NCBI GenBank assembly: GCA_030615745.1
Contig: JAUWYR010000043.1
Location: 1 to 21,700, forward strand
Length of the DNA stretch: 21,700 bases
Source: Candidatus Zixiibacteriota bacterium
Lineage (GTDB): Bacteria > Zixibacteria > MSB-5A5 > SM23-73-2
Reading direction: 5' to 3'
Shown piece by piece: positions 5,204-9,194 of this stretch; position 1 is the stretch's first letter, and each line of letters begins with the position of its first letter. The notes beneath the pieces are model-generated. The model was not told the DNA's origin. It searched no databases and worked only from the letters and a program-made list of their open reading frames with translations. A program made the translations under genes and the position numbers.

Positions 5204-5347
5204 TCTAAAAAGCCTTGAACAATTAATTCTAATCTATTGCCTTCCAACGGCTTCCACCCACTGTGGCATAGTGCAATCTAATGGGGAATTCAAAGTTCAC
5301 AAAAGTTTGCTAAGAGTGAGGTCAGCCCCCGTTTTATTAGTTTTCTT

Positions 5348-5839
5348 TTATTTTTGCTCTAACTTCTTCTTTATATAAGGAATTAGCCCTCCACTATCCA
5401 AAATCTCTTTGATAAAATCTGGCAAATGAGCAAATTCTATTTTTTTATCATTTAGGATTATCTCTCCCTTTTCAAAATCTATAATTATTTCTTTTCCTTC
5501 CTCTACAAGATCATAAGCTTTTTCCGATTGAACCAAAGCAAGACCCTGATTTATCGCATTTCTGAAAAATATTCTTGAGAATGATTTTGCAACAACGCAA
5601 CTTATTCCTGCATGTTTCAAAGAGGTAGCTGCCTGCTCCCTTGAGCTCCCACATCCAAAATTCTTTCCAGCAACGATTATATCACCTTTTTGTATCTTTT
5701 GCGGGAAATTTTTGTCCAGACCCTCCAAGGCATGCTTTGCCATCTCTTTTGAGTCTATTATCGGAAGATATTTGCCAGGATAGATCAAATCGGTATCGAT
5801 GTTATCCTTCAATTTCCAGACTCTCCCTTTTAAAATCAT
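5348..5839 (-). CDS. Isopropylmalate isomerase/homoaconitase-family small subunit (LeuD-like)
   Basis: This 163-residue protein is the swivel-domain small subunit of the aconitase superfamily, in the short form typical of archaeal-type LeuD/HACN. It carries NIDTDLIYPGKYL (13-25), NFGCGSSREQA (60-70, substrate and cluster contact region) and SFSRIFFRNAINQGL (86-100). With the large subunit encoded just upstream it would form a [4Fe-4S] hydro-lyase isomerising 2-isopropylmalate (leucine synthesis) or a homologue such as homocitrate or citraconate. The loop after strand 1, which contributes to substrate choice in this family, reads YLPI here (24-27), and I cannot assign the substrate from it. 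The start overlaps the large-subunit stop as ATGA (5836-5839), which indicates translational coupling and supports a heterodimer. No leuA or leuB is in the window. Confidence 0.9.
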   Translation of the reverse strand: MILKGRVWKLKDNIDTDLIYPGKYLPIIDSKEMAKHALEGLDKNFPQKIQKGDIIVAGKNFGCGSSREQAATSLKHAGISCVVAKSFSRIFFRNAINQGLALVQSEKAYDLVEEGKEIIIDFEKGEIILNDKKIEFAHLPDFIKEILDSGGLIPYIKKKLEQK

Positions 5840-7449
5840 ACTATTTTACCTTTCCATATTTTTCTCAAAAACTCCCGGGGGTCAGTTATCTTTCCCTTTA
5901 TAGCTGAGGCAGCAGCTGTTGCTGGTGATGCCAAAAAGATTTGAGAATCAGAAGAGCCCATTCTACCTTTGAAGTTGCGATTGGTGGTAGCCAAACACTT
6001 CTCCTTTGCTCCTAAAATTCCCTCATGTGCACCCAGACATGGGCCACACCCTGGATTTAAGACAACGCAATCTGACTCAACAAATACCTTTATGATTCCT
6101 TTTTTTAAAGCTTCTAAATAGACCTCTTTGGAACATGGCAAAACAAGCATCCTAATATCAGGATGAACTTTTTTGCCTTTCAAAATCCTCGCTGCTATCT
6201 CCAGATCATCTAATCTTCCATTGGTGCATGAGCCCAAAACCACCTGGTCGATTTTTACACTCTTTACCTCCTCCACAGGCTTCACATTATCAACAGAATG
6301 GGGACAGGATATTTGGGGCGTAAGTTTTGTGATATCGAACTCGTATTCCTCGTTATATACTGCGTTCTGGTCTGCCCACACAGGCAGGTAATTTTTTTTT
6401 GTCCTTTTTTTAAGGAATCTTTTGGTAGCCTTATCAAATGGAACAATTGCAAATTTAGCACCCATCTCCATTGAAAGATTGCATAATGTGAACCTCTCTG
6501 AGATAGACATATCCGAAACCGCCTCCCCGTAGAATTCAACAGATTTGTAAGATGCACCTTCTGAGGTGAGGTTTTTTATCACAAAAAGTATAACATCTTT
6601 AGCATATACCCCCAAAGGAAGTTTACCTTTTAAAACTATTTTGACCGATTCAGGAACCTTAAGCCATATCTTTCCTAAAGCCCAAACCCCAGCCATCTCG
6701 GTTGCGCCTATTCCGGTTGAGATCGCTCCGATACATCCATATGAAGTGGTATGCGAATCTGTTCCCAAAGCAAGCTCACCTGGCAATATATGCGCCTTTT
6801 CTACCATAACCTGATGGCATATTCCCTCGTTGATATCGTAGAAATTTTTTATTTTTTGTTCTTTGACAAAAAGCCTTATTTGGCGATGAATATCTGCTGT
6901 CTTCTCAGATTCAGCTGGAACTCTATGGTCCAAAGGAATTATGATTTTTCCGGGATTCCATACTCTGGAGATTCCAATCTGGTTAAACTGCTTTATCACA
7001 AGCCCGGTATTATCATGGCTCATCACTATATCCGGTTCCACTTCTACTATCTCCCCAACCTCGATTTTGCTTTTACCCAATTTTTTTGCTAAGATCTTTT
7101 GAGCAATAGTTAGAAAACCAGATTTTGAGCTTTGGGCAAAAGATAGCTCTAATTGTGCCATTTTCAAAACCTTAGGCTTTTCAATTATTTTGTATTTTTT
7201 TCTCCATTTATAAAAAGCAGAAGCTGATAAGGAAAGCTCTGCCCCTGCTTCTTTGTCATTTCCAAATCTCTCCCACAAATCCTTTATCTTCTCCTCAGAA
7301 TATTTAGGCAAAGAAAATTTCTCAATTTTCTTCTTTCTTCTCCAGTAGGTAACAAGATACTTAGGTACACCGATAGCTTGGGCAACCTTTTTATCGGTTT
7401 TATATTTCTCTTGGAGTTTTAAAATCTCTTCTTTTTTGGGTATCTTCAT
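5836..7449 (-). CDS. Aconitase-family isomerase large subunit (LeuC/HacA-like) with N-terminal tandem HTH domain
   Basis: Residues about 113-537 form a complete 3-isopropylmalate dehydratase/homoaconitase-type large subunit. It shows SHDNTG, DHRVPAES, GTDSHTTSYGCIGAISTG, and the three [4Fe-4S] cysteines C408 (GSCTNGR), C468 and C471 (NPGCGPCLGAHEG). In front is an unusual lysine-rich extension of about 95 residues containing two gapless 37-residue repeats (6-42 and 52-88). Each ends in a WRR/WRK motif and looks like a homeodomain/Fis-like helix-turn-helix. The start at 7449 overlaps the HIT-gene stop (ATGA, 7446-7449). An internal ATG at Met97 (7161) has a well-spaced TAAGG, so a plain 441-residue enzyme could also be made. 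The enzyme assignment is firm at family level. The substrate and the role of the HTH are unknown; autoregulation is my inference. Confidence 0.92.
   Translation of the reverse strand: MKIPKKEEILKLQEKYKTDKKVAQAIGVPKYLVTYWRRKKKIEKFSLPKYSEEKIKDLWERFGNDKEAGAELSLSASAFYKWRKKYKIIEKPKVLKMAQLELSFAQSSKSGFLTIAQKILAKKLGKSKIEVGEIVEVEPDIVMSHDNTGLVIKQFNQIGISRVWNPGKIIIPLDHRVPAESEKTADIHRQIRLFVKEQKIKNFYDINEGICHQVMVEKAHILPGELALGTDSHTTSYGCIGAISTGIGATEMAGVWALGKIWLKVPESVKIVLKGKLPLGVYAKDVILFVIKNLTSEGASYKSVEFYGEAVSDMSISERFTLCNLSMEMGAKFAIVPFDKATKRFLKKRTKKNYLPVWADQNAVYNEEYEFDITKLTPQISCPHSVDNVKPVEEVKSVKIDQVVLGSCTNGRLDDLEIAARILKGKKVHPDIRMLVLPCSKEVYLEALKKGIIKVFVESDCVVLNPGCGPCLGAHEGILGAKEKCLATTNRNFKGRMGSSDSQIFLASPATAAASAIKGKITDPREFLRKIWKGKIV
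7159..7174 (-). promoter_or_regulatory. Possible internal ribosome binding site and start (Met97 of the HTH-isomerase)
   Basis: On the minus strand TAAGG (7170-7174) lies 8 nt before an in-frame ATG (7159-7161). Initiation here would produce the isomerase subunit without the tandem HTH, close to the usual family length. A Shine-Dalgarno-like site inside AT-rich coding sequence can also occur by chance. Confidence 0.4.
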
Positions 7450-7934
7450 AAACTGATTTTATCGAACTTCTCTTTTATCTTTTGATAGATTTCATCTAAG
7501 GAGATGGAAATAAGCTTGGTATCAGCTAAAACTGGCATAAAATTGGTATCTCCATTCCAGCGTGGAACAATGTGGATGTGGAGATGATCTGCTATCCCTG
7601 CTCCGGAGACCTTCTGCAAATTCACCCCTAAATTGAAACCGTGAGGTTTCAAAACATCTTTTAATACCTTAACTGAAAGCTGGGTAAGCTTTATCAGCTC
7701 GAAAAGCTCAGAATCTTTCAACTTCTCCAATTTTCCGATATGCCTTTTGGGGCTGACCATAAGATGTCCACTATTGTAGGGAAAACGATTGAGAATAACA
7801 AAACAACTTTTGCCCCTGAACAAAATCAGATTCTTTTTATCTTTTTTCTCCTTTAATCTTTTACAGAAAATACATCCTTTTTCCTTTTCACCCAAGATAA
7901 ACTCTTTTCTCCACGGGGCCCACAGGTTTTTCAT
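7446..7934 (-). CDS. HIT family hydrolase/phosphorylase (Ap4A phosphorylase-like)
   Basis: This 162-residue protein has the histidine triad HLHIHIV close to the C-terminus (His117, His119, His121). It is followed by VPRWNGDTNFMPV, a tail shared with mycobacterial Ap4A phosphorylase-type HIT proteins, and it also begins with their LWAPWR motif. GCIFC (Cys21, Cys24) and the downstream histidines fit a zinc site. Expected activity is cleavage of dinucleoside polyphosphates or nucleotide phosphoramidates in the cytoplasm. I start it at ATG 7934, 6 nt after GGAG; a TTG directly upstream (7937) would leave only 3 nt of spacing. It is the first gene of a three-gene unit with the isomerase subunits, joined by ATGA overlaps. 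A metabolic link between them is not evident. Confidence 0.92.
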   Translation of the reverse strand: MKNLWAPWRKEFILGEKEKGCIFCKRLKEKKDKKNLILFRGKSCFVILNRFPYNSGHLMVSPKRHIGKLEKLKDSELFELIKLTQLSVKVLKDVLKPHGFNLGVNLQKVSGAGIADHLHIHIVPRWNGDTNFMPVLADTKLISISLDEIYQKIKEKFDKISL

Positions 7935-7963
7935 CAAAAGCTCCTTTATAAAATCTTTTTTAA

Positions 7964-7992
7964 AATATAATCAAAAATCTTGTTGATTTCAA
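7964..7992 (-). promoter_or_regulatory. Putative promoter of the HIT-isomerase operon
   Basis: TTGAAA (7987-7992, minus strand) and TATATT (7964-7969), each 5 of 6 to consensus, are separated by 17 bp. The transcript would start near 7957, giving a leader of about 23 nt that carries AAAGGAG before the ATG at 7934. Confidence 0.55.
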
Positions 7993-8227
7993 TCTTTATT
8001 TTTTGAAAAAAATCTTATGCACATTTGGAGTATTATAAACTGTTATAAAGTTATGCTAAGGCATTTTATTTGTCTGTAAGACTTTAAAAAATATATGGCT
8101 TTAAAGATAAATTCCAACTAAAAAATCTCAAACAGATTTTCCTTAAAAAACCGTATTACTACATTTAAGAGTTAATTACAGATGCAGGATAATTATAAAA
8201 TTTCGGGTTTTAAAATCTATTTTTCAT

Positions 8228-8255
8228 TTGAAAAATTTAAAAAAATCTTTATATT
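8228..8255 (+). promoter_or_regulatory. Putative promoter of the ABC operon, placed for a leaderless transcript
   Basis: TTGAAA (8228-8233), 16 bp, TATATT (8250-8255). The -10 box ends 6 nt before the ATG at 8262, so transcription would begin at or next to the start codon. No Shine-Dalgarno sequence precedes this ATG, which agrees with leaderless initiation. Confidence 0.5.
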
Positions 8256-8261
8256 TAAAAA

Positions 8262-9194
8262 ATGATCAAGGTAAAGAATTTAACTAAAAATTATGGGGAG
8301 CAAAAAGCGGTAGACAATATATCCTTTGAGGTAAAAACCGGGGAGATCTTAGGTTTTTTAGGACCAAATGGCGCTGGTAAAACCACTACCATGAGAATCA
8401 TAACCTGCTACATGCCCCCAAACTCTGGCACTGTTGAAATAGATGGGAAAAATATTTTCGACGATTCCTTAAGTATAAGAAAAAAAATCGGCTATCTTCC
8501 TGAGAACGCACCCCTTTATATGGATATGAACACAATAGATTATCTTTACTTCGTAATGGGGTTAAGGGGTGTCTCAAAAAAGGATTACCAAAAAAGGTTA
8601 AAGGATATAATAGAGATATGCGGACTGGGCTCAGAAATACATAAAGATATAGGTGAGCTTTCCAAAGGATTCAGACAGAGGGTTGGGTTAGCCCAGGCTT
8701 TGATTCACGAACCTGAGATATTGATTTTGGATGAGCCCACATTAGGTCTTGACCCCAATCAGATAGTTGAGATAAGAAATATGATAAAAGAGCTTGGAAA
8801 GGAAAAGACCGTGATTCTGTCCACTCACATCCTCCCCGAGGTAGAAGCAACCTGTGGAAGGGTCTTGATAATTAACGAGGGCAAGATCGTAGCTGATGGC
8901 ACCCCAGAACAGCTCCAGAAAGGATTTAAAGGAAAAGAAAAAATCTATATTGAGATAAAATCAGAAGAAGATGTGATAAGCAAGTTGAAAGGTCTGCCTG
9001 GAGTTGAAAAAGTAGATTTTACCGCCCCCGATGAAAATGATATAAAAAAACTCAGTATAGAATGCAGGAAAGGTGTGGATTTAAGGGAAAAGATTTTCAA
9101 TTTCTCTGTTGAGAACAAATGGATAATCCTTGAGATGAGAAGGGAAGAAAAAAGCTTAGAGGAGATCTTCAGACTCCTAACCCAGTCGAATTAG
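8262..9194 (+). CDS. ABC transporter ATP-binding protein, GldA-like
   Basis: This is a 310-residue ABC ATPase: Walker A GPNGAGKT (34-41), signature LSKGFRQR (133-140), Walker B ILILDEP (153-159) and H-loop His189. The Q-loop position reads YLPENAPLY, with Glu instead of Gln, as often seen in DrrA/GldA-type subunits. A C-terminal extension of about 85 residues follows the nucleotide-binding domain. It leads a tightly spaced unit with an ABC-2 permease, a GldG-like protein and a DUF4340 protein, the gene set known from gliding/export loci of the FCB group and relatives. It should power that membrane complex; the substrate is unknown. The start lacks a ribosome binding site (see the promoter at 8228-8255). 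Confidence 0.95.
   Translation: MIKVKNLTKNYGEQKAVDNISFEVKTGEILGFLGPNGAGKTTTMRIITCYMPPNSGTVEIDGKNIFDDSLSIRKKIGYLPENAPLYMDMNTIDYLYFVMGLRGVSKKDYQKRLKDIIEICGLGSEIHKDIGELSKGFRQRVGLAQALIHEPEILILDEPTLGLDPNQIVEIRNMIKELGKEKTVILSTHILPEVEATCGRVLIINEGKIVADGTPEQLQKGFKGKEKIYIEIKSEEDVISKLKGLPGVEKVDFTAPDENDIKKLSIECRKGVDLREKIFNFSVENKWIILEMRREEKSLEEIFRLLTQSN

Follow-up and report, generated by a model that had tools for sequence, protein, structure and literature searches.

What does an aconitase-type protein do when its N-terminus carries a second, apparently DNA-binding part? The question is raised by one gene in a 21,700-nt stretch of Zixibacteria DNA (the window, by which we mean the whole stretch analysed), which a sequence-only reading had described as an isopropylmalate isomerase (IPMI)-type large subunit fused to two tandem helix-turn-helix (HTH) repeats. 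Enzyme-derived transcription factors are known. To our knowledge they include none in which an aconitase-superfamily protein carries a fused HTH, and gene regulation in Zixibacteria, an uncultured phylum, is essentially unstudied. Taken as a whole, the evidence makes it likely that the window protein belongs to a phylum-specific family of transcription factors and represents its early-branching type, with the catalytic residues intact.

The fused gene and its predicted HTH extension

The open reading frame was found as described, with an ATG start and 537 aa on the minus strand, and family models together with overlays of the AlphaFold2 model on Fis bore out the proposed architecture. The features of the locus are as follows.

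5228-5256, no strand assigned: candidate operator-like dyad TCTAATCTATTGCCTTCCAACGGCTTCCA, lying between the stop of the small-subunit gene and a prolyl-oligopeptidase-like gene (score 17.2)
5348-5839, minus strand: LeuD/HacB-type small subunit (TIGR02087, 1.7e-62)
5836-7449, minus strand: fused tandem HTH extension and IPMI/homoaconitase-type large subunit, 537 aa (open reading frame, family models)
5875-7110, minus strand: aconitase-superfamily core, residues 114-525, with intact C408, C468, C471, GTDSHTT and NRNFKGRMG (family models, motifs)
7186-7296, minus strand: predicted HTH repeat 2, residues 52-88 (three-helix unit in AlphaFold2, Fis-like with Z 5.1; sub-threshold HTH_Tnp_1/HTH_23 matches)
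7324-7434, minus strand: predicted HTH repeat 1, residues 6-42 (three-helix unit in AlphaFold2, Fis-like with Z 5.9; conserved in 78 aligned relatives)
7446-7937, minus strand: HIT-family gene, first of the operon (Pfam HIT, 3.8e-15)
7938-8261, no strand assigned: intergenic region upstream of the operon, without operator match (best score 1.5 in 7901-8300)

The ATG of the fusion overlaps the stop of the HIT gene (ATGA) and its own stop overlaps the start of the small-subunit gene, so that the layout is that of a single three-gene operon, with the extension inside it. The closest NCBIfam model to the HIT gene was an ATP adenylyltransferase (148 bits, below the cut-off of 290). A HIT gene stood upstream of the fusion in 85 of the 94 non-redundant loci and was the sole near-universal neighbour.

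In the fused protein, Pfam Aconitase spanned residues 118-519 with E 1.3e-99, while the subfamily models of NCBIfam began at residue 114, leaving about 95-113 extra residues at the N-terminus. The two gapless 37-residue repeats claimed there (6-42 and 52-88) are real: 11 of 37 residues were identical, and the BLOSUM62 score of 51 between them was reached by none of 100,000 shuffles. Structure prediction, proposed earlier as a check on residues 1-95, gave two three-helix units in an AlphaFold2 model built on 78 aligned relatives (mean pLDDT 84, about 90 in the core), with helices at 6-16, 19-26 and 30-39 in unit 1 and at 52-62, 65-71 and 76-85 in unit 2. When overlaid on Fis with VIA-align, unit 1 matched over 39 residues (0.9 A, Z 5.9) and unit 2 over 41 residues (1.7 A, Z 5.1); a Z of 5-6 is middling for small helical units, yet both repeats fitted one fold. 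The invariant residues L32, Y35, W36, R37 and K39, and likewise W82 and R83, fell in the third helix of their respective units. Foldseek with the extension alone returned weak matches, none below 1e-3 (the best, E 0.055, being tandem engrailed homeodomains), and the sequence libraries gave sub-threshold HTH matches with no family above its cut-off. As modelled, the extension has the three-helix HTH fold and is a pair of Fis-like HTH units, and the earlier claim of a DNA-binding module covalently joined to an aconitase-family protein is supported by this predicted fold and by the conservation of the fusion.

Two other readings were rejected. A wrongly annotated start codon is contradicted by the extension itself, which was kept with the fusion in every homologue retrieved, phylum-wide. 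An insertion-sequence transposase did not fit either, HTH_Tnp_1 being sub-threshold and the core being an aconitase instead of a DDE nuclease. Separately, in the survey of genomes outside the phylum, an HTH with weak similarity to the extension occurred 11 times in one genome (G140), for the most part within frames of about 340-410 aa; these copies are probably insertion sequences or transposases, and an HTH of this type is a possible source of the module.

Distribution, descent and the fate of the enzyme core

The survey of homologues, which had also been proposed, extended the case from one gene to nearly a whole phylum. The extension was present in 120 of 132 Zixibacteria genomes, including 76 of the 78 good ones, almost always in one copy, and the open frames of the fused genes were mostly about 500-600 aa. 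Among the 94 non-redundant loci, every extension was joined to an aconitase-like core except one, which lay at a contig end where the core was not scored. No convincing extension was detected in 254 genomes outside Zixibacteria, where three weak matches had E values of 2.5e-4 to 9.4e-4. Horizontal occurrence in Calditrichota and Ignavibacterium was rejected: at least L085 and L113 matched genomes placed within Zixibacteria, and those names were therefore treated as probable mislabels.

The window protein belongs to the IPMI/HacA-type large subunits, since it exceeded the curated cut-offs of the subfamily models PRK00402 (582.6 against 385), TIGR01343 (553.8 against 385.7) and TIGR02086 (549.7 against 410). 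It fell short of the models for leucine-pathway LeuC (TIGR02083, 479.7 against 610.65; TIGR00170, 243.8 against 560.25) and for methanogen-type homoaconitase HacA (NF040615, 505.9 against 550). A bacterial leuA model (leuA_bact), run against 11 genomes of the window's order, matched in none of them, and with the equivalog cut-offs missed as well, a role in leucine biosynthesis is not supported. We therefore consider it very improbable that the protein is an ordinary isopropylmalate isomerase of leucine synthesis with the extension as a passive appendage. The scores of PRK00402 and hacA_fam far above cut-off, the adjacent small subunit and the intact catalytic residues in the window would suit such an enzyme; against them stand the missing leuA, the missed leucine-specific models, the loss of catalysis in most members, and an extension found in all members and very highly conserved, also in those whose enzyme is dead. 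The window's genome encodes two further large subunits. One clusters with a small subunit and an NADP isocitrate dehydrogenase (L284, contig C7, 8000-17334), an operon context that marks it as a split TCA aconitase, and the other adjoins a TrpB-like gene.

The three cluster cysteines and the active-site motifs were found together in the window protein and nine relatives, and these ten intact members, which keep the cysteines, GTDSHTT and NRNFKGRMG, all come from the window's order and one sister lineage. In the remaining 84 of the 94 relatives the Fe-S ligands, the active-site motifs or both were gone; counted over all 94, no cluster cysteine was kept in 41, one in 28, two in 8 and three in 17. 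A small-subunit gene adjoined all but one of the intact members. Such a gene also adjoined some degenerate fused genes (L107, L088, L132, L053, L018, L027 and L118), and in L107 and L088 it scored well (163 and 160 bits) though the large subunits lacked ligands.

The sequence-only reading had proposed that substrate or iron status could control transcription directly. As a general rule this is not supported, given the ligands and motifs lost in 84 of 94 relatives, with all three cysteines lost in 41. The window protein retains every ligand and a small-subunit gene, so that metabolite or Fe-S sensing is possible for this lineage only, and no more than the catalytic minority could sense iron or substrate.

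Purifying selection was seen on the core and the extension both, with a core dN/dS of about 0.05-0.15, which places even the dead cores under selection. In degenerate pairs the extension was 88-100% identical and the core 68-95%, whereas in the catalytic clade the core was conserved about as much as the extension, or more. The degenerate L110, which has no cysteine ligand, was modelled with a pLDDT of 89 and matched the IPMI large subunit MJ0499 (4kp1) at E 4e-18, a match that the intact homologues in the model's alignment may have aided.

In the tree, the fused cores formed one clade (SH-aLRT 99) with the non-fused paralogues apart (99), and the 84 degenerate fused cores formed one clade within the analysis (98); support for the intact fused group was only 72. 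Rooted on the non-fused paralogues, the tree gives one fusion to a working enzyme followed by loss of catalysis, and the intact type is basal only if the root falls among these paralogues. Under the favoured account, a single event would have joined two Fis-like HTH units to an active IPMI/homoaconitase-type large subunit at its N-terminus. Elsewhere in the phylum the core would have decayed to a non-catalytic domain, probably ligand-sensing or oligomerising, with the HTH part held under stronger constraint while the core degenerated. The fused family looks like a group of so far undescribed gene regulators that evolved from a metabolic enzyme.

A dyad at HIT-operon and GH35 promoters

To what would such a protein bind? 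A motif search over 92 regions upstream of the HIT gene, with no symmetry imposed, returned tAAc-N4-TTG-N5-CAa-N4-gTTA, that is, the dyad TAAc-N4-TG-N5-CA-N4-gTTA. Its log-likelihood was 239 against 95 for shuffled sequence, its palindromic correlation of 0.83 was reached in none of 1000 column permutations, and 31 of 50 sites fell in a single 21-nt interval where 5.4 were expected. Control searches with other upstream regions gave GC-rich, codon-like motifs of lower likelihood. An 18-base motif model yielded no coherent site. The dyad preceded the HIT operon in one large family and also, within a distant clade, at the two loci L107 and L086.

The exact pattern TAACN4TGN5CAN4GTTA was then compared with its reversed pattern, totals being summed from the count tables. 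It was in excess in 54 genomes of family f10 (65 against 10) and in 78 other Zixibacteria genomes (64 against 12), and the counts were 35 against 28 in 240 genomes outside the phylum. In the catalytic families exact dyads were not enriched (4 against 2 in 12 genomes); GH35 sites were present there. Most inspected sites were intergenic (51 of 60), and the targets common to different genera were a GH35-type gene (seven times) and methylmalonyl-CoA mutase (four times).

In order to read these recurrent target promoters independently, the matrix from the HIT promoters, trained mostly on one family, was applied blind to unseen promoters, a positive being a score above the 95% level of shuffled sequence. 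The GH35 promoters were positive in 27 of 29 f10 genomes, with 0 of 29 in the coding control, and in 53 of 57 genomes of 17 other families, the window's genome included; upstream regions of other genes were positive in 9%, or 11% where gaps were long. In the window's genome the GH35 dyad, TGTAAGCTTTTGATAATCAAAAAGTTACT, lies about 182 bp before the start codon (G000, contig C51), and a congener has one at nearly equal distance from the start. Methylmalonyl-CoA mutase promoters were positive in 15 of 29 f10 genomes (upstream regions L254-L283). The GH35 protein also matched a GLMA-type second domain, which makes a role as exo-glucosaminidase or galactosidase likely as far as its domains tell.

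The f10 GH35 promoters (upstream regions L224-L253) carried two dyads in 28 of 29 genomes, at about -108 and about -14 from the start codon. Their spacing was 92-101 bp (94-96 in 22 of 28) and they flanked a strong TTGACTTT / TATNNT promoter; the centre of the upstream dyad lay 47 bp before the -10 element in 22 of 26, and the second dyad lay over the ribosome-binding site. Two operators nine helical turns apart, one of them over the ribosome-binding site, would be the layout of a DNA-looping repressor, and their position on either side of the promoter suggests repression, possibly through looping between two dimers.

At the window itself, the gap 7935-8261, put forward earlier as the DNA to be bound, contains no dyad operator, and the operon's own promoter gave a best score of 1.5 across 7901-8300. 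The dyad-like site at 5228-5256 reached 17.2 against a maximum of 16.2 in 30 shuffled windows, a single weak case.

We infer that the fused protein is the binder of the dyad, on four grounds: the large family, L107 and L086 carry the dyad upstream of the operon that encodes the protein itself; a subunit with two HTH units would fit a half-site with two contact elements; the phylum in which the dyad is enriched is also the one that has the protein; and of the families with the protein, nearly all have GH35 dyads. Two observations count against the link, namely the window operon without a dyad and one genome (G089, 96% complete) with a GH35 site of score 18.4 and no regulator gene detected, and another phylum-specific factor could own the dyad. 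It may also be asked whether the extension is a nucleic-acid-binding tail of an enzyme, serving DNA or RNA localisation or mRNA control with no transcription factor involved and the dyad belonging to another factor. Aconitases are known as mRNA-binding regulators (PMC6978683), a nucleotide-binding protein of the HIT family is encoded next to the fusion almost throughout, and the fused protein is a putative binder of the dyad; we nevertheless hold such a tail to be unlikely, as the predicted fold is a tandem DNA-type HTH, most lineages lost catalysis yet retained it, and the dyad keeps fixed distances from promoters, among them, in one large family, the promoter of the operon that holds the fused gene, with no enrichment outside the phylum that carries the protein.

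The transcription-factor account would then run as follows. The protein most likely binds the dyad as a dimer, two contact elements per half-site matching its paired HTH units, and its probable targets are its own HIT-regulator operon and the gene of the GH35/GlmA-type glycosidase, with methylmalonyl-CoA mutase a probable target in some lineages. A dimeric or tetrameric state, repression and a ligand are deduced from these patterns, and the family is probably one of dimeric repressors, specific to the phylum and derived from an active isomerase. We lean, with less assurance, towards the fuller statement that this is a phylum-wide core family of transcription factors with an IPMI-fold effector domain, which passed from an active DNA-tethered enzyme to dead one-component repressors of a conserved glycosidase regulon with two operators, the transition being still visible in living members.

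For the window's lineage the account can be refined, with no competition between the two. Since neither the enzyme residues nor the small-subunit gene has been lost in its order, the protein could be a trigger enzyme that is both catalytic and DNA-binding. Judged from its residues, the clade appears competent for catalysis: no other clade retains the three cysteines, GTDSHTT, NRNF and the small subunit all at once, and the core of this clade is constrained as in an enzyme. With the GH35 promoter dyad in the window's genome on one side and the operon's own promoter without one on the other, we put forward only tentatively that DNA binding depends here on cluster occupancy, on substrate or on the small subunit, the degenerate members sensing by ligand alone.

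Relation to known systems

On the best account, the structural claim made from the window holds, and its extent is larger than first thought: a nearly phylum-wide family, of which the window protein is the still catalytic form. No described HTH-aconitase family was found in the literature searched, subscription journals lying largely outside its scope, in agreement with the sequence-only reading, which knew of no described family of this architecture. The family offers a graded record of an Fe-S enzyme turning regulator in nearly every Zixibacteria genome and, with an operator and a regulon predicted, lends itself to direct tests in vitro.

The core shares fold and motifs with MJ0499/MJ1003-type IPMI/homoaconitase (PRK00402/hacA_fam), and the window protein shares the cluster ligands and the separate small subunit as well. 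It differs in the N-terminal tandem HTH and in that most members lack ligands and active site; unlike IPMI, it is accompanied by no leucine pathway synthase found in the 11 genomes of the window's order. Each repeat overlays on the Fis-like HTH known from Fis, the C-terminus of NtrC-family proteins and mariner transposases; here the units are tandem and N-terminal, with no sequence family above cut-off.

In MocR/GabR, a GntR-type wHTH is fused to an aminotransferase-like domain (PMC4944035, PMC5320631). These proteins likewise place an HTH before a domain that descends from a metabolic enzyme and is now a sensor. The window protein, with its aconitase-type core, falls outside that group (GntR wHTH with a PLP aminotransferase fold); HTH type and enzyme family are other ones, and an enzyme-competent form survives beside degenerate ones. 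PutA and BirA are trigger enzymes (PMC6978683), joining enzyme and DNA-binding function in one chain as may be the case in the window's lineage, but their folds are different and most of the fused family lacks catalysis. Bacterial AcnB and IRP1 are aconitases that moonlight as regulators and bind mRNA with the enzyme fold itself (PMC6978683). They share superfamily and regulatory role with the fused family, whereas here a dedicated DNA-type HTH, as predicted, has been fused. Should the window lineage prove to be a genuine trigger enzyme, its active DNA-tethered form could make transcription follow Fe-S or substrate state, and the aconitase/IRP switch would have in it a covalent counterpart that works at the level of DNA.
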